Shown one piece after another: positions 5,320 through 29,563 of a DNA stretch of 29,563 nucleotides. The stretch is from Ectocarpus siliculosus. Lineage: Eukaryota > Sar > Phaeophyceae > Ectocarpales > Ectocarpaceae. The stretch is from NCBI GenBank assembly GCA_000310025.1, contig FN648850.1, positions 1 through 29,563 on the forward strand. Reading direction: 5' to 3'. Position 1 is the stretch's first letter; each line of letters opens with the position of its first letter. A program made the translations under genes and the position numbers. The notes below the pieces were generated by a model, which saw only the letters and a list, made by a program, of their open reading frames with translations, did no database searches and was not told the DNA's origin.

Positions 5320-8165
5320 GCATACAACAAGTATTAAATGCCGGAACCACACACATCAATAGTGTGTGGCGGCCGTGGTGGTGGGCTTGTTTTCGCAACA
5401 GCGCTACCCACCACGGTTGTTGCCTGTGAGGCGATTCACGCATGAATAGAGAAAGTGTAAATGCCGGAACCACACACATAAATAGTGTGTGGCGGCCATG
5501 GTTGGTGGGCTTGTTTTCGCAACAGCGCTACTTACCAGGGTTGTTGCCTGTGTGGCGATTCACGCATGAATACAGAGATATGAATGCCGGAACCACACAC
5601 ATCAGTAGTGTGTGGCGGCCGTGGTTGGTGGGCTTGTTTTCGCAACAGCGCTACTTACCACGGGTGTTGCCTGTGGGCGATTCACGCATGAATACAGAGA
5701 GTACGAATGCCGGAACCACACACATCAATAGTGTGTGGCGGCCGTGCTTGGTGGGCTTGTTTTCGCAACAGCGCTACTTACCAGGGGTGTTGCCTGTGTG
5801 GCAATTCTCGCATGAATACAGATAGTACGAATGCCGGAACCACACACATCAATAGTGTGTGGCGGCCATGGTGGTGGGCTTGTTTTCGCGACAGCGCTAC
5901 TTACCAGGGTTGTTGCCTGTGTGGCGATTCACGCATGAATACAGAGAATTCGAATGCCGGAACCACACACATCAGTAGTGTGTGGCGGCCGTGGTTGGTG
6001 GGCTTGTTTTCGCAACAGCGCTACTTACCACGGTTGTTGCCTGTGGGCGATTCACGCACGAATACAGAGAGTACGAATGCCGGAACCACACACATCAATA
6101 GTGTGTGGCGGCCGTGGTTGGTGGGCTTGTTTTCGCAACAGCGCTACTTACCAGGGTTGTTGCCTGTGTGGCGATTCTCGCATGAATACAGATAGTACGA
6201 ATGCCGGAACCACACACATCAATAGTGTGTGGCGGCCATGGTGGTGGGCTTGTTTTCGCGACAGCGCTACTTACCAGGGTTGTTGCCTGTGTGGCGATTC
6301 ACGCATGAATACAGAGAATTCGAATGCCGGAACCACACACACCAATAGTGTATGGCGGCCGTGGTTGGTGGGCTTGTTTTCGCAACAGCGCTACTTACCA
6401 GGGTTGTTGCCTGTGTGGCGATTCACGCACGAATACAGAGAGTATGAATGCCGGAACCACACACATCAATAGTGTGTGGCGGCCGTGGTTGGTGGGCTTG
6501 TTTTCGCAACAGCGCTACTTGCCAGGGTTGTTGCCTGTGGGCGATTCACGCACGAATACAAAGAGTAGGAATGCCGGAACCACACACATCAATAGAGTGT
6601 GGCGGCCGTGGTTGGTGGGCTTGTTTTCGCAACAGCGCTACTTGCCAGGGTTGTTGCCCGTGTGGCGATTCACGCATGAATACAGAGGGTATGAATGCCG
6701 GCACCACACACATGAATAGTGTGTGGCGGCCGTGGTTGGTGGGCTTGTGTTCGCAAGAGCGCTACCTACTAACGTTGTTTCCTGTGAGTGATTCCCGCAT
6801 AAATACCAAGAAAGTGTAAATACCGAAACCATACACAGGAAAAGTGTGTGGCGGCCTTGGTCGGTGGGCTTGTTTGTCAACAGCGCTACTTACCGGGGTT
6901 GTTGCCTGTGGGGCAATTCACGCATAAATACAGAAAGTGTAAATGCGGGAACCACACACATACATAGTGCGTGGCGGCCGTGGTCGGTGGGCTACTTACC
7001 AGGGTTGTTGCCTGTGGGGCAATTCACGCATGAATACAGAGAGCTTGAATGCCGGAACCACAAACATGAAAAGTGTGCGGCGGCCGTCGTTGGTGGGCTG
7101 GTTTGTCAACAGCGCTACTTACCAGGGTTGTTGCCTGTGGGCAATTAACGCATGAATACAGAAGTGTGTGGATCCCGGAACCACACGCATGAGAAGTGTG
7201 TGGCGGCCGTGGTTGGTGGGCTTGTTTGTCAACAGCGCTACCTATTAGGGTTGTCGCCGGTGGGCGATTCACACATGAATATAGAGAGTGTAAATGCCGA
7301 CACCATACACATGAATAGCGCGTGGCGGCCGGAGTTGGTGGACTTGTTCTGTTTTTCAACAAGCGCTACCTACGAGAGTTGCCGCCGGGGGTGATTCACG
7401 CATGAATACAGAGAATGTAACTGCCGAAACCCACGCATGAGTAGGGGTGGCGGTCGGAGTCAGTGGATTTATTTGTTTTCAACGAGTGCTACCTACGAGA
7501 GTTGTTGCCTGTGGGGCGATTCACGCACAGGTACAGAGAGTACTGCCAGAACCATACACATGAACAGTGTGTGGCGGCCGTGATTGGTGTACTTGTTTTG
7601 TTTTCATCAAGCGCTAACTACGAGAGTTGTCGCCGGGGGCGATTCACGCACAGACATAGAGAGCGTAACAGCCGGAACCACACGCATGAGTAGAGAGTGG
7701 CGGCCGGAGTTGATGGACTTGTTTTCGCAACAGCGCTACATACCTCCTCGAGTTGTCGCCTTGGGCGATTCACGCAGTCTATTTATGCCAGAACCAAGCA
7801 CACCAATCGTGTTTGGTGGCCGTGGTTGGTGAGCTTGTCATTTCTGAACATGGCTATCTACCAGGGTTGTCGCGTGGGGCGATTCGCGCAGATCAGTTTC
7901 GCCGGAATGTAACACATCAATCGTGTTTGGCGGCCGTGGTGGTGAGCTTTACGTTTGAGCGCTACTTAACCCCGGTTGTCGCATGGAGCGATTCACGCAG
8001 ATTAGGTTATGCCGGGACCAAACACATCAATCGTGTTTGGCGGCCGTGGCTGGTGAGCTTCGTTTTGAACAGTCCCACCTGCCAGGGTTGTCGCATGGGG
8101 CGATTCACGCAGATTTGTTTTTTTATGCTGGTACCGATCGTGTGTGACGGCCGTGGTTGGTGAGT
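5320..8165 (+). repeat. Satellite array, about 123-bp monomers (left block)
   Basis: The anchor ATGCCGGAACC begins at 5338, 5461, 5584, 5707, 5831, 5954, 6077, 6201, 6324, 6448, 6571, and a variant at 6695, so the period is 123-124 bp. Each monomer has the conserved blocks GTGTGTGGCGGCC, GGGCTTGTTTTCGCAACAGC, TTGTTGCCTGTG and GGCGATTCACGCATGAATAC. Monomers up to about 6700 are nearly identical; those from 6800 to 8165 carry indels and substitutions. Because 123 is divisible by 3, long ORFs of a 41-residue repeating peptide appear. They break wherever the period is 124 and are not considered genes. Confidence 0.97.
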
Positions 8166-17859: not shown

Positions 17860-18624
17860 AGCGAAGATCTATCACGACGGAAGCGCTGCAGCCAACTTTA
17901 TTTAGTAGTCCCCTAGTTACGACATGAAGATTGTGTGTGCACAGTACAAGGTATCAGCATCCACCTAGCTAGCAGACGCTTGGAGTTGTATGTAGGGCAG
18001 ACACAACACGCCGTATGACGCTCCCGTACAGGGCTGTCAGCGAACGGTCAGAATAGTCATCGGTGAAACCCCAAGGTAGGCGGTCGACCATCTGGGGTCT
18101 CCAACAGTAGGAATTGTGTTCGAGAGCTGGTCCAGGCGCCTCTCTCCCTCTCATATTCTACCATCAATCTCTGACCGTTGTGTCAGACGTTAACAACGAC
18201 ATGAACCACGGCTCCCACGGGCGGCATCGTAATAATCGTAATAGTGGACTTCCAATCCTAAGTCAAAGAAAGGAAGATCGTCACATGACCTTGTTCACTT
18301 CCCTGGAGTAAGCGTTTCGTTATATTACAGCCTTCGTTCGTGAAAAAATCATCTACAACGAGGGGCAGGTTTTCCGTGGATGAAGTGTTCCGCATTATTA
18401 TCTCTAGCATAAACGCATGCTTTTTTGTATATTCCGTGGAATAAAATGATCTCACTTGGGACCCTGCGTGTGTATAGTATGGGTGTGTTGTTATTATTAG
18501 CATCGACCGCTCTCACCGGCTGATCAATGAGAAGACGTCAGTTTTGGTGCGTCTTAAAACACAAAACACTTCAGAAGGCCATTTACTGCGACCCCGTAGG
18601 GGGGAGGCTAAACTATCCTTCGTA
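17860..18624. other. Gene-free stretch between the palindrome array and the DUF7869 gene
   Basis: No coding segment is supported. It probably contains the 3' untranslated region of the minus-strand DUF7869 gene. An 81-codon minus-strand ORF (18258-18503) lacks any motif. Confidence 0.3.
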
Positions 18625-21600
18625 TCAAAGACAGAAACGGTAGCAACAGAATATACTGCACGCTTCTATCAAGGCTATTACCTTGAACTCGAGGGCGTTT
18701 AGGAGTACTTTCACCTTAGGGTTATAAGCCTCCTTGTCTTCTCTACCATCATTCCGATCATCATGTTGAGAACAATATCTTGACAGTTCTTCCCTAGCCC
18801 TAAGTGTTTTGTTCTGGGGAAGGTCATGTGGCTCAAACCCCCTGCTCTCTTCCACTCCTCCATGTTTTCCTCGTACATCGTCGTCTTCGTCCTCCTTTCT
18901 GCCCCGTGTGTGTGTAGATCAGCAATAGAGCTTCATCGGTGTGGAGGTGATCATGTCCTACCAGTTGGACGTGGACGAAGGATACACGAAGAAGAGGACC
19001 CCCGGCAGTCCGCTGCATCTCCGCGGCCTCACCGTGATGGGTGAAGTAGACTGGGCCGCGGTTTCGTTCGCATGAGGGTAGGCTGGTTAAAGGGCGAGCG
19101 ACTGAGAGACCGTCGGTAGCAGATGACGAATTACGCCCTCTCGTAGGGTAGGATACTCTCGTTGAACGATATTGCGAAAAAAACGAAAACGTACCGCCGA
19201 CGTGGGCGACTGGTAGCTTCTGCCACGAGGCTTGTTGGCGCAGCTCTACCCGGTGAATTATTTCATCCTGGACCAGTTTGAGCTCGTAGGGCGGGGTTGC
19301 CTCCAAGTGCACTGCATGTGCGTGCATCAGGCGCCAAGGGCTGAATCCGTCCCCACTCCCCACCGTCTTCCCATCTTCGCTGAAGCCTAACCAGTCCTCG
19401 TGGTGCATCTTCATCTTTACCGTCACCACCATCGAGGGCCCCTCCTTGTAGATTTTGAAAGCTTGGAAGTTGGTGATATTTGGGATGCGTCGTGTTACGG
19501 GAGCCACCAGGTCCTTGAAGTTGGCGAGGTTTTCTAGGGTCCGGCATTTTACTTGTACCTTTTTGTAGCCGCGTCTGAAGGCGTCCCCCAGCTCCTCTCG
19601 CGTGAAGATGTCGACCCCTTTCACCGCTTTGGCGAAGCTTCGCATCAAAATGGCGCAAATACGACGTGGGCAAAAGGGGGGGGCACGAGACGAACAAGAA
19701 AGGTTGGGGTGTCTTTTGTAAATGGTTGACGTCGGGATCTATTTGTCGGCAAGATGAAGATGTGGATATACGCCTTAGATCAACCGCACCCCGAGGACAA
19801 AGGTTCGATCACGAGGGATATCCATTAATTTCATCAACAAATAGTAGGCGCTGCAAGACGAAAAATGTAACGTCCCTCGAACGCACAGTGGATACATACT
19901 ATACGTCGACCATCCTGTGCATTATTCTTATGTGTTTCTTCCGCGACGACTACTCACCAGGAGAAAATCTGGTCGATCTGGATGTGGGTGTGGCCAACCA
20001 TCATGAAGCAGAGCGTGACCGTCCTCATGATTCCCCGACCAACCATCGCTGCCAAAATGCCCATGAGGTAGTTGTTCTTGTTCTCGGCGACAGTGTTGTC
20101 CACCTGCACGGTCACGTCTCCCAGGGCATGTTCCCAGGAGAGGGTCAGTTCCATGAACTGGTAGTACAGCGCCGTTGCGACGAGATTTGTACCTGCGACG
20201 GAAAAACGTGTCACGCCCCCATAGCACGAGAACATACATGATGAGAATAAAACGTACATACATGACGATGTCCGCAAATTCATTGGGTTTATGATACCTA
20301 GCTGTCTTTTTATCTCGCGCCACGTAGAACTAGACTTGTGCCGCGGCCCAAGCCAAACGGCGATACGCGTTGAAAGGACAAGATCAATGCAACTGAGCTC
20401 AAAACCATTGAAGACGGCGGTCGCCAATCAACGTAAATATAACGCGACTGCCAAGCGTACTTCCCTGCGTTAGAGGTGTGAGCATGGCAGTCGGGCATAC
20501 TGCCTGTGCGCGGCAATGCACCCTAACACCAACCGACGCAAGCCTCATCAGCAAGCGGCGAACATTTCGATCATGAACGAACATGCAATGAAAGAGTTTT
20601 ATCTTGCTACCGTCCGTGAATAGCTTGCTCCCTTCTACGTTCTCAGATGTAAAGTCTCCTACCCTGCTCGAACATGCCTCAAACGTGAGTCATCATGCGC
20701 ACTCACCCGTGCCGAGAATCTGGGGGGCGAAGAACACGTTCATGACCATCCCGGCGACGAGCACACCGTATACCTTCGCGCGTTCGCCATACCCCCTGGA
20801 AAACAGGAATTAGACAGGGGGCGGTGCGAGCGCGCGATGGGGTGTGGGGTTGCGATTCCTCGTGGTGGATGAAGGGGCCGACGGGCCTGTTACTACCACC
20901 TCTTTCTTCTTTTCCTCACGACCGGTGACCTGTCCACGTTCGCTGATACCACGCTGATTTAAGTTAACGTAACCAATTACATTAAAGTATGTGTTTTCCG
21001 CGTAGCCTACTCGACAAATTGATACTACGTTACTAAAGCAACGGGTTCCCTTACTTGTCGTCGATCCCGTGAGCCTTGTCCTTGGACAGAGGGACAACGA
21101 AGTTGCTCTGGTTGGCGCCGTCCATCATGCAGTAGGGCTGGTCCCACGGCACCCCGTTCATCTTGGCATTCGCTGCAGCCGTCTTAAGTTTTGAGATTGC
21201 CTTCCGGTCGTTGCTCACGTCCGGTCGACACGAACACGAAGGCACAGATTAGCTGCTCCGTGTTCAAGGGTAAGCGCGACAATCATGTCAGCAGCCGGTG
21301 TGCCCACCCCTGGAACCTCTTCTTGGGGAGGTAGGTGCGGTAGACAGGGTGTCTAATATATACTGTGCATCCCCGGGTTTGTGCTGTGGCGTCTGTTCAA
21401 AAAACATGTTGGGTTGTGATGTCGTCGTATGACGCTGTAAACCACGCAAATAGCAAATACATACATACGCACCTCCATGTGGTTGTCGTACTCCTTTCTC
21501 TTCAGGTCTTTTTCCGCCTCGTCCTGGATGCCTCTGGAGCAGGACTGCGTTCCGAAGATCGTAGACTTGAGGAGCGTGCAGATCTTGCAAAGCATGAAGT

Positions 21601-23368
21601 CTCCGGTTGGTTTCAACTTGAGATGGGGGAACTCTTGGGCCCATATCCTGTTGAAGTACTCGCGCGTGCAGAGGGCTGCGTCCAGTCCCACTAGCTCCCC
21701 GTGGAGCTCCTTCCGGGTTTTGCTCTCGTACTCGTCAAACAACTCCTGCGAAGATGACAATACATGTAGTCGAAAAGAGAGGCGTGCATGGATAGTGGAT
21801 GGATGCGGCTGCCAGTAGCAGTATTTACGTACTCCAGCTGTTGCTGTGGCAATGGCGACTCGTCGATAGGTAGTGGTAGATAGAAGAGTACAGCAGCAGT
21901 AGGCTTGTATTACCAATCATAAAAAGGCTAACAATTGGATAGACCACTCGGTTAGCACGAACTGGTCAACAAATAAATGATATAATATTATCAAGTTACT
22001 GCGGATCGACCTTTTTTGTACCTGCGCAATGCTCCACACGCACACCCACGACCACCACCACCACCATGGAACAAGAGTACACCACATACAGAAGACTAAA
22101 CTTGTTGGCGTCTTTGGGCTATCCTTCCTTCCACAAACTGAGGAGGGAGGGTAATGTTCCCTCCCGTCACAACCCAAATACATACGCGCAGTACATAGTC
22201 TACATACATACAAACATTCAAACATATGAAGTGCGTACACATACATACATTTTTGTTCTTTAGGTAGAGGTACTTGTCGTCGGAATTCGGCATGTGCTGC
22301 GCTAACGTGTCCTGGTAGTGCTGAAGGAAGCCGATGGCCCTGTCCCTCTTGGGTGAATCTCTGGTCTTTTGCACAGGACATCTTTACACAGACCCATCAA
22401 CACACAATTATGAACGATACAGGAGTGACAACATGCACGAACGGGAAAGACGTCGTCAGCCAAAGGCCAAAGGACAAGTACAAGTGAGCTGCCCGCTCAT
22501 CGAATGTACGTATTTATGTATGTTTAATTAAGTAGACAGCTATCTACTACTTACTGCTGCTGCAATCTCTACAAACATACTTAATCTTACATAGTCTATG
22601 TCTATCTTGAGAGCAGCATGCCTGTAATAGTACTGCTTATTGACAGTAAGTGGTAGTATTTACCAAACGAGGCCCAACACGCTAGCAGCCCACAAACCAA
22701 CACACACACACACACACCTTGTCGCTGATCTAGACGCCGGAGCCTTTTCCGTCCCTTTGCATGAACATATGAGGCTGTCGGAAACCCTGAAGAACTCCCT
22801 GAAGGCTCGATTGCAGACAGGGGTGCCCGCCGCGATCATGCTTCCCTGACTTAGCTTCGCGAGGGGGACGTGCTCCGTGACGAACCGCTTGCGGTCTTCC
22901 TCTCGCGTGAACCCTTTGAAAATGGCCTGCTCCCGTTCCAAGAAATCCCCGTCGTGACAAAAGCTGTTGTTGTTGTTGTCGTTGCTGCTGTTGCTGCTGT
23001 GGTTACTGTTGCTGGCGCCGCCCTCGTCATCATCCCTACCCCCCCCGCCGTTGGCAAACAGCTCGATGCAATTCAACCTGCAGCACCGCAGCTGCTGCTG
23101 CTGCTGCTGCTGCTGTTCGTTGCTTGTTGCCTTCATGCGCTCCCAACACTCCTGCGCGGATTGTGGTTCCCCCCACTTACTTGCGCTTGGAACGCTCCTG
23201 TTTCTGTGGAGCCCCGAGGGTGTCTCCCGAGTCATCCTGTCTCCTGAAAAGGGGAGTCGTTCGTGCCCTCTTCTGGCGCCTCTCTTCCTCCTCGCGCTGC
23301 CGGCGCGCTTTGTCCGCTGGGGTATCTGCTTTCCCGAAGAGCCATGCCGCAGAATCCGCCACGGGCAT
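18625..23368 (-). CDS. DUF7869-domain protein, ten exons
   Basis: Exons on the minus strand, read 5' to 3': 23368-23181, 23122-22718, 22360-22249, 21745-21473, 21200-21055, 20795-20707, 20192-19958, 19637-19195, 19050-18962, 18894-18625. Phases match at every join and give 749 residues. The first join (58-bp intron), the acceptor of exon 5 and the last exon are least certain. The N-terminal part has a Lys/Arg-rich coil, a Gln tract and an Asn/Ser tract, then a Cys cluster (LRCCRLNC) and PVCNRAFREFF. The middle has LCKICTLLK and MMDGANQSNF. The diagnostic region is VQVDNTVAENKNN followed about 30 residues later by GHTHIQIDQIFSC, which defines DUF7869. Such proteins are widespread in mobile-element-rich eukaryotes and their biochemical function is unknown. 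The conserved Asp residues in MDG, VDNT and HIQID hint at an RNase H-like fold, which is my inference. Confidence 0.8.
22700..22717 (-). repeat. (GT)9 microsatellite forming a splice donor
   Basis: On the minus strand the second DUF7869 exon ends ACAAG at 22718 and the intron begins directly with GTGTGTGTGTGTGTGTGT. Any GT of the repeat near the border could serve as donor. Only the first keeps the frame with the next exon (AG|A, Arg). Confidence 0.7.
22985..23112 (-). repeat. Coding trinucleotide tracts in the DUF7869 gene
   Basis: On the minus strand a CAG run encodes eight Gln (about 23087-23112), and AAC/AGC runs encode an Asn/Ser-rich segment (about 22965-23015). Both sit in exon 2 and keep the frame. 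They are likely length-polymorphic, flexible linkers. Confidence 0.8.
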
Positions 23369-24128
23369 CGCTTCGTTGGACGCTTACTACGTGTGCCCTT
23401 GGTTCCTCGGTTGGTTGCTGTGGTGTGTGTGCGTGTGTGTGTGGGTTTCTTGAAGTAGAGCTCCCTGTATCGTACCTCTCGCGTCTCGACCCGGAAAGAG
23501 AGAGTGGTAGAGCAGTCGATAATCGATGTGTCATCAACAAGCGGACATCTTTATTACAGGGCTCAGGGCAGCGCTTTGTAATCAAAATGACCAGTGAGAG
23601 AGGCCAGACGATTTTTTTTATCTTTTTGGAGACCAGAGATGCCAATTCGATTACATCGGAATCTATCGTGGTGTGAACCGACACGCGGACGTTTCCGCGC
23701 AGATCTAAAGAAAAAACGCTCGTTCTACGAACGATATGATAAGTTTGTAATCGAATCGAACGGAAAAATCGTCGCAAAGAAGAATATAATCCCAGCGGCA
23801 CAAATTTTGGTCGTTACGATTCCAAAGTTCATCCCTGCGCTCCTTAATCTAAGACACCCCATTTCTCGAACTGTGAGATTAGGGAGTCCAGAGGAGACGT
23901 AGGGCAACGCTACTCGTTATGTTCCCGATAATCAAGCGGGGTACCTCGAATGCGTACTTAGCATTAGACCCGCAGGAGGCCCGCTGATGCCCGTGGCCGC
24001 GTGGCGTGCCGACACCCATCAACCAAACAATCAATCGTACGTCCCCCTCTGGCCTCCGTTTGTTTGTTGTCACCTTCCTCCTCTCTGTCCTGCCACGCGG
24101 GTTCAAGGCTCCTCCGACCGACCTTGTC
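23369..24128. promoter_or_regulatory. Shared upstream region of two divergent genes
   Basis: This 760-bp segment separates the DUF7869 start (minus) from the ParB-fusion start (plus), so it should hold both promoters. It is locally A/T-rich (23600-23850) and contains short dyads such as CGTTC-TAC-GAACG near 23720. An open plus-strand frame (23594-23902) shows no motif and is not called a gene. No TATA box or other core element could be assigned with confidence. Confidence 0.4.
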
Positions 24129-27100
24129 ATGGCCAACGGGCAGCGAGGACGAGGCCGTCGTGCTGTTGGTGGCGGTGGTGGTGCTTCGTCTTCTGCGGGT
24201 GACCACGGTGATGATCCGACAAGCGCAACAAACATCGGCGAGGTCTTGGCTTCGCACTGCGTGAAGGAGTGGGACGTGCCACTAAAGCACATCACGTTGG
24301 CGGAGAACAGCAGGCAAACCAGCCCGACCGCGGTGCAGGACGTCGTCGAGAGCATCCAAGCTCATGGATGGGTGGATAGCTTTCCGCGAGTGATGTTCTC
24401 GGATCTGACAGAAGGGCAAGAGATGACTGCCGAGCTCGCCGCTAGGCTACATGCCGTCGTCATCGATGGAAATCATCGCTTGGCTGCCTGCAAGGAGGTG
24501 TACGGAGAAGATCGGCTCATCAGGTGCACGTGCTACCGGTTCATCGCGGATAGCTTCGCCAGGCAAATCGCCTCTGACGGTGAGATGGAAGAGTGTACTC
24601 TCGACAGTGGATGAAGCAAACACGGTCTTGTTGGGAAGACGTCTGTTTCTTACGCTTACTTACGAGCACTCCTCCTGCTGCTCTCAAACACATCTATCGC
24701 CTCTCAAGCTTGTCATAGAAATTGCGTCGGATTTTTGTACTTTGTTTGGAGGGTATGTATGTTGCATATGGTACATACTTACTTGTATGTTAGGGTGTGT
24801 GTAGCAGTCGAGGTGTCAGACGATAATGTTACAAAGGCGCAGCAAGCAGCAGCAGCCGCAGCCGCAGCAGCAACGAAGAGATGATGAGCACGTCGCTGCT
24901 CGCGCGCCTCTTCACGTGCGGAATTGACCGAATTAATTATCGATACCACGAAAAACACAGCAACACCGCAAGAACAAGACTAGCATACGATGTACCCTTT
25001 TGAGGTACTCCAATGAATAACACCATTATTAGTTGGTGTACTGCGGTACAGCAGTTCCTGACACAACGACACGGTAGTGGCGGTAGTGACTCCTCAACAA
25101 CGCACCCACACATTTCCGATGGATCGGTGACTCGTCTCCTGGGCCACCGCTGCCGCTGCTGTACACCCCAGTGTGCAACGTCACGACGGCCACGTTCCAA
25201 GCGCGGACAATCTACGATCAGCTCTATTTCTACAGTAGGATGATGACGTCGCTGATGAGCCAGGATAAAGAGGCATCATCAGGTCGCCGGCGGTCTTCTA
25301 ATGGTCGTTCGAAACCGTCTGTCACCGCGGCTAAGCTAGCGTCATGCTGGAAGGGGGTGAGTGCGACTGACGCATTCTTTTGGTGCTGATACTCTCCATA
25401 TTTCTGGTGGGTGTTTATTCCTGTAGCCTGTCGCCGACATCAGGCCATGTTACTACTGTACTGTTACTACTGTACAAGCACCAGTATTTTCGTATTATAG
25501 CATTGTTTTCTGTGCTTTTTGCTGCAATATTCAGGCTGGTAGCCAGGCACCGGCAGCCAACACCCTTCGCCAGTGGATTTCTATCGTCAACGACACGAGC
25601 CAGGAAGCACTGATCGCGCTTCGTGCTCTGACGGATCAACGCGTTCCAGGGTACCAAAGCATCACCAAGGCCTTCCTCGCCGACCCTCGCGTGCGGGACT
25701 TGAAAGAAGAGCAGCCGCAAACCCAGGCCCTCATGTTCGACATTTACGTGAGGTATGCAATATGGGAGGCAACGAGTAAGACCATCCAAGTGTGATACAA
25801 GCGTGATATATTAACATGCTTCGTTCGTCGTTGACATCCTCTGCAACTGTATTGCTGTTGGCGGTAGTGTTTGTGTCAAAGGTTCTACGCTGCCATGTTG
25901 ATCACTCGTGTATACCAATATAAGCGGACGATCAGCGTCGGAACGCATGCATCCATGCAGACCATCCTCGATTAGAACCCCACCGTGTGGTTTGGGTACT
26001 TCTGCAGGATGCCGAAGACGTCCAAAAAAGGAGACCGCGAGGGGTTGGACGAGATAGGCTGGGCGTTGGCTCGGGCGAAGATGACGGCGTCTTGGGTCGA
26101 GGGTATTGAGCACGTAGTGCCCAGAGACCAATGGTCAGACAAGCTGAAGGGGTGAGTGCAGCGACAACGTAGATTGGGGCGTGGCACTCGGCAATATTGT
26201 TCTTGCGGTGGTTGTCCGTGATTGGTAGGGGCAACCCTAGAAAGAAGACGACGAACATTCACTAACCTCGACCGCATTCAATATCTTCCCGGGGTTCCCA
26301 TGGCCCACATCAACAGCACCGTCCGCGACTTCGCGTTCGTGAAGACCGGCCACTACGCTAACTACGTCAAGCCACACCAACTTGAGAGAGAGGCGGAGGT
26401 ACGCGAGCTCCGCGAGTCGCTTCCTCCGCACATCAAGGAGCTCGACGAAGATGTAGTGTTGGCCATTCGCTCGAAGCTACATCCCACCATCAGGAAGGTG
26501 AATCCCGTACAATTTAGTACTGATTTGTTCGCCTAAGCGTGTTTGTAGCATTTTTCCTTGCGGTTCGAGTGCTGTACAGGGTATTGTGGATGGGCGCAGC
26601 CAACCCAGCACAAGTTATTATGTGTTTGTTTTGCTGTTTTGCATATGCACACACCCTTCTTTCCCCCCTGCCCGTTATTGGGACGGGTTTCACTAGCACA
26701 TCTGCAATCACTCGGATAGGGGCGAGCGAGGAGGGTTGGTCGCGTTTCTCCGCGCAAATTATTACAGGCGGGACATAGTCGCGGGTGGAAGGCCAAAGTT
26801 TTGTTGCTTTCTGTTGGTTCGTCGTATGGCAGGTCATGCGCGAAGACCTCAACTTTCGCCCGATGCTCGTCGAGCACGAGGAACTGTACGAAAGCGCTTT
26901 GAACAAGGTCAGAAGCTTGAAGCTGCAAGTCACTCAGCCAGTGCAACCACGTCCACGAGAACCCGTCGGCAACCCCAACAGCGAGGGTCTTGCCTGCACC
27001 GTCTGCAAAGCACCAACCTCTTCGAGGTGAGGACCAGGGAGGTACAGGATGAATGATCACGCCTGTTGGGAACACGCCTATATTTCATATGCGGCCTGTC

Positions 27101-29563
27101 CGCTCGCGTGGCCGACCGTCGCAATCTCACCGCGAGTTTACGCCGCTCGCATCCCATGCCCGGTGTGACCCTTCTTGTCGACTTTAACACCGGTTCGTGT
27201 CCATCTTACCATTAATTGTATATTTTCGCGCGGCCTCCATGTATCACGCCATGTACAAAGTAGGAGTTACTTCTTTTACGACACGACAGTGTTTAAATAT
27301 CGCCGCCCTCTTCACCCTTGTTGTCTCTCGTCCCCATTACTCTTCGCTCCCCTCGCCTTAGCTATTCGTGTTCCGTCTGCAAAATTCGCCACACTGGTGG
27401 TTGCGCGAACACCGACTTTTCGGAGGACAGCGAAACGTCGAAAGTCAGAGACTGCAAGGACTGCCACCTCAGCAAGCAGCCACAGCAGCAGCCAGAGGAG
27501 CCAGCGGAACCGGAGGGTCCTGAGGAGGGGGAACAAAGCCAGCAGGATGCCAGCAAGCGCCCCGCCCCAGGACGTTCGGGAGACGGGGAGGACGGTGGTC
27601 CGTCTTCCCCCTCCGGACGAACCGGCGCGCGGGATAAGGGGAAAAGGCCCAGGAGGGACCCAACCCCCTCGTCACCGGCACCGACCTTGCCCACTCTCCC
27701 GTCCTCGCCTGGCGGCACGGGTGACGACCTCAAGACCCTACGCAGGTACTGTGACAATGAGTGATGAAGGCGCGATGTACACTACTAGTACCATTTCCCC
27801 AAGATTCGCTCTAGAGCTTGTTGGTCGACGCTAGGCCCGAAGCAGCAAGAAATAAATAAACAAACGAATAACCCTAACCCTGACATTATTTTGCTTTTTG
27901 TTCCCGTGGTTTCCATGCCGCATGCCCCACCACCCACTGCTTGCCGTCGACATACAGGGCTGAGTGCATCCGCATCAACGACGCTATGCCGCTTAGTCGT
28001 GATTTCCGCGTGGAAGGACCCGACTCTCCTATCGAGGTCGACGGTGACAAGGCCATGCTCTTGTTCGTCGATCCCGGTGTGAACGACGATCTGCTCAGGG
28101 AAACTGAAACCTGGAAAGACCGCCTGAGCAAGATCATCTACCGCGTGTGCGACTTCTTGCACGAGGAAGGCACCATGATCGTCCACGTTCCTCACTCCTA
28201 TCTTCACCATGGTCGGCGCATCGAGGGTCAGTGTTGTCTATTTATTGCTTTTTCTCTCTTGTACGAGCTTTCACGTCAGCATGGTCGTCGTCGTCTTGCT
28301 TTCGATTTTGTTTTAGCGGGGAATGACGTGGAGTTTGGAGGGACTATCTGGGCGCGAAGAAGAAGACGCTCCCGATGCCCTTTGTCCCCTCCGTCACGTA
28401 CGGACTAACAGGCGCCGTCCTTGTTCGATTGTGTCGTGTTGCTTCTTGTTTGCTCCTTTTTCACCGTGTAGACGCCCTCAAGCGGCCCGATTTGGGACTG
28501 GTTGTAGAAGACAATCCGCTGGTGGTTGTGTACGGAAAGAGGGGAGGTGGAATCACAGCTACATCCAAGGCAAACCATCTTTCAGGGGGCGTCGACATCT
28601 TTCTTATCGCTCATCCCGATGGCGCTAGCTTCCGATGCAACAAGGACGTGCTGCCGCAGAACGTTCCGGATAAGGTTTGGGCAAATGGCGAGCGGATTCC
28701 TGTCAACAATGGCCACGAGTGCGTCATGAACGACGTTCCCTACCTTGGGGCTTCTCGATGCTTCCACAACAACGTCGCCTCCTGGAGGATTCAACGGTGA
28801 GCCCCTGAGTCTTGAACGAGCCGCTTTACTCCGCGACATGAGAGGCTCGTACGTGAAAATAAAATACTTCATCCTCGTCACCCATGAAATGCCCACATGG
28901 CGTGTGGGGTTTGGATATATCTCCATTCATATAGTTTGTTTTATTTCTTGTTCCCAACTTCCGGGGGGGATCTCACCCCTCACCCATCTAAGTAGCACAT
29001 TTGCGTAGATGGCGGTGGGCCGTGAGTGGGTAGAGTGGGGGTTACTCTCCTCGCGTGGTAGACCATTAACCACGCGTCCTTGACAGGACGGACCACGCGG
29101 TAGATGGGGGTGGGGTGTGTCTTCATGGGGTACGAGGGGGGGGGGGTGTACTCATAGTCGTGCATGCCGTAGTCGTTAGACCATTGACCTCGCATCCCTA
29201 CAAAGCCGGGACGGAGCACGCCGGGTTCTCACCGGACCAGGTACGAGGGGGGGGGGCGTATCGACAGGATGGGAAGAACTATTTGTTGTTGTGCGGGTGG
29301 TGTACGGGGGATAGTCGTCTTCACTCAATCAAATAATAACATACCTGGACGCCCTAACCCTCGTTCGATGAGTGCCAAGTACCAGAATTCCACATGCCGC
29401 ACAAGCCCTACCGTAACCCTCATACCTCACAGTTCTGTATACTCTGTCGTTTTATGCATCCCCAAGTTTCACGAAGCAAGGGGACACCGTCATGACGCTT
29501 ACCGCCGACAAGGACGGTGTCCTCGAGACAGCACTGAATTACGGGCGGAATGTGGGCTTGTTC
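24129..29563 (+). CDS. ParB-like domain / Cys-rich / DNA-methyltransferase-like fusion protein, eleven exons, continues past the edge
   Basis: Exons: 24129-24579, 25172-25356, 25535-25752, 26008-26151, 26248-26497, 26833-27026, 27362-27745, 27958-28226, 28317-28397, 28472-28796, 29467-29563+. The phases add up to 866 open codons. Residues 45-140 form a ParB-like N-terminal domain: an N60-S-R62 box, SIQAHGW (75-81) and VIDGNHRLAA (111-120). Residues 213-450 are helical. A Cys cluster follows (C471-x2-C474, C484-x2-C487, C495, C512-x2-C515-H), then a Pro/Gln/Glu-rich disordered stretch (about 520-605). From 610 on it resembles permuted (beta-type) DNA amino-methyltransferases: AMLLFVDPG (641-649) sits where DPPY is expected, with GTMIVHVP after it; GDTVMTLTADKDGVLE then aligns with the GD.VLDPFAGSGT block and is followed by ALNYGRNVGLF. 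Both catalytic motifs are altered, so methyl transfer is doubtful. ParB-methylase fusions are known from phages and bacterial elements. The acceptors of exons 5 and 9 are the weakest. Confidence 0.72.
24580..25171 (+). other. First intron of the ParB-fusion gene
   Basis: The donor G|GTGAGA at 24580 and the acceptor ACCCCAG|TG at 25171 join in phase 1 (GAC-GTG-TGC). The intron carries a GCAGCA/GCCGCA-rich purine-pyrimidine tract at about 24838-24873 and TACATA/TATGTA words at about 24750-24790. Confidence 0.7.
27870..27881 (+). repeat. Telomere-like motif in an intron
   Basis: AACCCTAACCCT lies in the intron between exons 7 and 8 of the ParB-fusion gene. A similar motif is at 1785-1797, and single CCCTAACCCT or GTAACCCT words are near 29351 and 29412. 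They match TTAGGG-type telomere repeats but are only two units long. Confidence 0.5.
28797..29466 (+). other. Last visible intron of the ParB-fusion gene
   Basis: The donor CG|GTGAGC joins the acceptor CCCCAAG|T in phase 2, giving Arg-Phe-Thr-Lys. The intron holds a diverged tandem duplication (about 29058-29145 and 29177-29255) in which GGTACGAGG is followed by long G runs, and AGACCATT(A/G)ACC marks each unit. Confidence 0.65.

Follow-up and report, generated by a model that had tools for sequence, protein, structure and literature searches.

A spliced ParB–methylase-like gene of a giant Ectocarpus siliculosus DNA transposon, apparently without methylase catalytic motifs and recurrently paired with a DUF7869 gene

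Introduction

The closest described system is Sola1-1_Ec32, a 21.5-kb giant DNA transposon of Ectocarpus which encodes, on the strand opposite its transposase, a 1104-residue protein with ParB-like and DNA-methyltransferase parts (PMC12477816). The accessible part of that paper predicts N4-methylcytosine or N6-methyladenine as the product, cites similar proteins of green- and red-algal transposons (Iyer 2011; Petroll 2025) and gives Figshare as the place where the consensus is deposited. Fusions of a ParB-CTPase-type domain to an N6/N4 methylase are also found in phages, including PHROG 498, a phage DNA methyltransferase family, and the proteins of PMC12704722. According to the available sections of the latter, N6_N4 methylase fusions are commoner in phages than in bacteria, 17 of 28 purified ParB-fold proteins did not bind nucleotide, and changing the GxxR arginine abolished nucleotide binding in those that did. 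PMC12695648, in its accessible part, mentions neither ParB nor Ectocarpus.

Here we describe a related gene of Ectocarpus siliculosus in a stretch of 29,563 nucleotides, hereafter the window, which is the entire contig FN648850.1 (C296 in our numbering) and carries 10 exons in full together with the first part of an eleventh. The transposon to which the gene belongs resembles Sola1-1_Ec32 in size (21.4 kb here) and in that its gene for a ParB-like and DNA-methyltransferase protein lies on the other strand from the presumed transposase, whereas its product, at 1131 residues, is 27 longer than printed, and the motifs are missing for the methylation that the printed account predicts. Because length, layout and domains agree, we take the two to be one kind of element and, very likely, members of one family; the element and its ParB–methylase fusion are already described in print, and finding them is not new. 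The gene shares with the phage proteins the fusion of a ParB-CTPase-type domain to an N6/N4 methylase-like one, and differs from them in being eukaryotic and spliced, in its Cys cluster, in an additional conserved region at the C terminus and in its lack of the catalytic motifs. The green- and red-algal proteins, as cited in PMC12477816, are transposon-borne proteins of the same sort.

Results

Gene structure

An earlier note on this DNA had proposed a spliced eukaryotic gene with a ParB-like N terminus, a cluster of Cys residues and a methylase-like order of motifs, all of which the present analysis bears out. Exons 1–10 lie on the plus strand of the window, are separated by GT..AG introns and join in phase from the ATG at 24129; the contig end cuts exon 11, and exons 11–13 were taken from the copy on C206, which completes a model of 13 exons. 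Exon 1 (24129–24579) carries the ATG, a Gly-rich start and the ParB-like domain, and exon 2 (25172–25356) has a counterpart in a diverged relative. A helical-looking region in exon 3 (25535–25752) is followed by exon 4 (26008–26151) and exon 5 (26317–26497). The Cys cluster, which starts at residue 447 after the ParB-like part, begins in exon 6 (26833–27026) and ends in exon 7 (27362–27745), giving way there to a charged Pro/Gly-rich linker; by eye, similar clusters occur in the diverged relatives on C106 and C460. The methylase-like domain begins in exon 8 (27958–28226), continues through exon 9 (28317–28397), has its middle in exon 10 (28472–28796) and reaches the truncated exon 11 (29467–29563). 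Both this domain and the region that follows it are common to the relatives on C106, C460, C33 and C206, and the C-terminal region has no Pfam match.

The least certain parts of the model are exons 5 and 9, and exon 9 is the least certain exon of all. The ends of exon 5 were set by splice phase and by the diverged relative, from which its acceptor was picked, and those of exon 9 by splice phase and an IIW.K pattern that we take to be methylase-like and used in choosing the frame. An earlier acceptor for exon 5 and an intronless frame-0 reading across exons 9 and 10 were weighed and not chosen. A diverged relative whose exon 1 is 42% identical keeps this order of exons, and the splice phases of the two, compared by eye, agree away from exon 9.

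Seven further copies support the model. All 13 exons are free of gaps and stops in five of them (C206, C50, C106, C378 and C246), the C94 copy lacks 4 exon bases, has 1 inserted and carries a TAG in exon 1, and the C245 copy is without exon 1. Where splice sites can be read in these copies, 164 of 167 are GT or AG; C94 departs from this at one donor, and the twin copies on C106 and C378 at one acceptor.

The ParB-like N terminus

The N terminus shows, in the order usual for ParB proteins, a Box I-like SI..HG stretch followed by DGNHR (Box II, GxxR; 24465–24479). Support from profile searches is weak and consistent: PHROG ParB models match with a best E of 2.7e-4, no single ParB-type PHROG matches more than three of the five families, and the Box II GxxR is kept in all five families with a readable exon 1. 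Exon 1 also weakly matches positions 38–99 of the 633 of PHROG 498, a stretch inferred to be the ParB part of that family. The Pfam ParB model matches none of the five families, nor does it find anything in a genome-wide search, and PDB profile searches with the ParB-like and methylase-like domains gave nothing credible. A single-sequence structure model of exon 1 (pLDDT 46) was too poor to use. No relatives of exon 1 were found in phages, and scans that find close relatives only, run with the ParB exon and with the C-terminal region against viral contigs and with exon 10 against genome contigs outside its own genome, returned none.

The methylase-like domain

The methylase assignment finds support in one part of the domain. 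The motif order fits and the C-terminal part has a profile match, whereas the N-terminal half has no significant one; Pfam and PDB give no methylase match to the methylase part, and PHROGs give a single methyltransferase match (E 0.44) in one of six families. The reference set comprised 13 methylases, YhdJ and 12 from phages; 11 of them entered the alignment, two being set aside for their large inserts. In profile–profile comparison with these 11 N6/N4 methylases the whole domain scored 41.3 (73% probability), with the best of 12 controls at 32.0. A C-terminal stretch, chosen after that first run had pointed there, scored 44.1 (91% probability), with the best of 100 column shuffles at 22.1, and the match brings the motif I region and the GR after it into line; the N-terminal half scored 12.8 vs 19.0 for the best of 30 shuffles. 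Methylase kinship is thus supported, from sequence comparison, only for the C-terminal part. In a Rhodobacter phage methylase (L032:558-2288), a LAGLIDADG domain is inserted in the N6_N4 methylase domain.

Both catalytic signatures appear to be missing. Motif IV, [DNS]PP[YFW], is absent from all five families with a readable exon 8, which read DPGV (28070–28081 in the window, where DPPY is expected), PLGL, NPGA, NLAA and DLTR; because the N-terminal half has no significant profile match, this place was set by position and look only, and the missing DPPY rests on the same. Among the references, 11 of 13 have the pattern. The glycines of the SAM loop (motif I, FxGxG) are absent from all six families: the columns aligned to the reference loop GSG (GSF in YhdJ) read DKD, ESD, DED, DRD, ERN and ETT, the first glycine being replaced by an acidic residue in every family. 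The window has TADKDG (29501–29518) at this place, and the C33 family has a G-I-G a few residues before the loop columns, out of that place. By pattern, FxG[SNT] is found in 8 of the 11 aligned references. A missing pattern is by itself no proof of inactivity, since two of the 13, the annotated methylases of phi13:2 and Phi91127, have neither the plain DPPY pattern nor FxG[SNT], and YhdJ has GSF. Pfam N6_N4_Mtase matches nothing in the gene, and nothing in the genome in an exon-by-exon search, which can miss members and whose controls were positive in 12 of 14 genomes. On these grounds catalysis by the domain is unlikely, and it seems to have lost residues needed for DNA methylation.

Copies and ends of the transposon

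In the 189-Mb genome (492 contigs), exon 1 has 11 matches, eight at 97–100% identity, the window's own included, and three diverged ones at 29–42%. A complete copy at C94:48036-69449 is a DNA transposon of 21,414 bp with inverted ends, the first and last 68 bp being identical as inverted repeats and some 280 bp about 90% alike. Sola-type DNA transposons have terminal inverted repeats and make 4-bp target duplications; the C94 copy has both, its flanks each carrying CAGA, a duplication seen in this one copy only. The copies on C206, C50 and C106 all stop at the same right end. Those on C106 and C378 may be one locus assembled twice, because they are identical to one another even left of the point where matching to other copies ends. 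The window copy is incomplete: on its right is the contig end, and on its left (19149–19151) it gives way to a different repeat, one that also occurs at other places in the genome.

A box, GACTTCGCGTT, is found twice in tandem, at a spacing of 19 bp, at either end of the C94 element and also at L003:3198-3230; a further single box lies within the element, at exon 5. We considered the terminal box as a candidate binding site.

Several other features were seen around these copies. The repeat that abuts the shortened window copy (18300–19151) is 80–95% alike at several other places. A second, diverged ParB–methylase-like gene (C206:29000-37181; L019 and L003) directly adjoins the right end of the C206 copy. 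Elsewhere in the window, repeated translated blocks at 5430–7700 (MPEPHTSIVCGGRGWWACFRNSATYQGCC and alike) suggest a long tandem array, and a minus-strand open frame at 598–1434 contains PDGNCWWRYLS, which is reminiscent of the start of an OTU-type protease.

The DUF7869 partner gene

Head-to-head with the ParB–methylase-like gene, open frames of a DUF7869 gene run leftwards on the minus strand from about 23550 (19149–23550), the best match lying in 19957–20427 (E 1.4e-20); a second exon matches DUF7869 below the Pfam cut-off, and the 3' side of the gene is cut in the window copy. We presume this gene to be the transposase; an open-literature search found no link between DUF7869 and Sola.

Genome-wide, DUF7869 is found at 12 places. 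It stands head-to-head beside three diverged relatives, at distances of about 4.5 kb on C106, 16 kb on C460 and 12 kb on C33, the last being taken from the ParB-gene exons located there, among which a search did not find exon 1. Counting the window's own family, four of the six thus have the pair. The remaining two, the relatives on C95 and at the second C206 locus, have no DUF7869 match listed nearby; just upstream of the C95 relative there is a 73% DNA match to the partner-gene region of the window. Genome searches gave no ParB-gene match at the DUF7869 places on C23, C2 and C125.

Selection

Among the near-identical copies compared, dN/dS runs from 0.17 to 1.54 and falls at 0.70–0.95, close to neutral, in 21 of 27 comparisons, a signal that is uninformative. 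When the copies are set against the one on C206 (C106 and C378 counted once), exons show less difference than introns in five of six cases, C50 being the exception. Across families, all 15 family-by-domain comparisons that span 20 codons or more, those of the methylase-like domain among them, show lower likeness at codon position 3 than at positions 1 and 2, in segments picked by protein similarity, which favours that result.

Discussion

The overall results are, in our judgement, probably best explained by a transposon-encoded DNA-binding protein in which a ParB-type switch is joined to an inactive methylase-like domain, the gene being an accessory of a giant Sola1-type element. The product would be a DNA-associated protein of about 1131 residues, whose ParB part would bind nucleotide and grip DNA and whose methylase-like part would serve as a non-catalytic module contacting DNA or bases; together they might gather or mark the element ends for the transposase, or shield the element. 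Any mechanism that goes further than a DNA-binding partner of the transposase is a guess.

The alternative that survives best, in our view an unlikely one, is the active N4-cytosine or N6-adenine methyltransferase that the 2025 paper predicts (PMC12477816, accessible part), which would bind and mark its own transposon. That prediction is in keeping with the C-terminal profile match to N6/N4 methylases, with codon-level conservation of the domain and with the two annotated methylases in 13 that depart from the plain patterns; against it, none of five related families has the catalytic motif and none of six the SAM-loop glycines, and Pfam N6_N4_Mtase is matched neither in the gene nor, exon by exon, in the genome. 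The suggestion of the earlier note that the protein could place DNA marks is not supported, both signatures being missing from the family members read.

It is improbable that the gene is decaying cargo with no present role, as might be read from dN/dS near 1 between many copies, the exon-1 stop and exon gap in C94 and the loss of exon 1 in C245. Five of the seven further copies nevertheless keep every exon free of gaps and stops, families only 22–46% identical retain the same domains and codon-level constraint, and DUF7869 accompanies the gene in four of six families.

Slightly less probable again is that the C-terminal domain is not methylase-derived and owes its likeness to a short Rossmann-like stretch. 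Such a reading would account for the want of methylase matches in Pfam and PDB, for PHROG matches no better than E 0.44 and for the non-significant N-terminal half, but the C-terminal stretch scores twice the maximum of 100 shuffles, with the motif I region and GR falling in line.

The gene is spliced, long and open, as a host gene would be, yet domestication, one of two origins proposed in the earlier note, is very improbable, because the gene lies in a large transposon that exists in multiple copies and shows both terminal repeats and target-site duplication; the other origin, a eukaryotic mobile-element component, is what the copies show.

The DNA-binding reading can be put more broadly, and then only tentatively, at a little short of an even chance: contrary to the printed prediction that the element is methylated, six or more diverged transposon lineages of brown algae may carry a methylase fold that no longer catalyses and now serves the transposition machinery by binding DNA, the fold being preceded in five of these lineages by a ParB-type nucleotide switch. 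Our analysis adds the missing motifs across families and the recurrent pairing with DUF7869, neither of which is mentioned in the accessible part of PMC12477816. The former are a reason to doubt the printed methylation function, and the latter, maintained over deep divergence, suggests that the gene is likely a working part of the transposon and not passing cargo.
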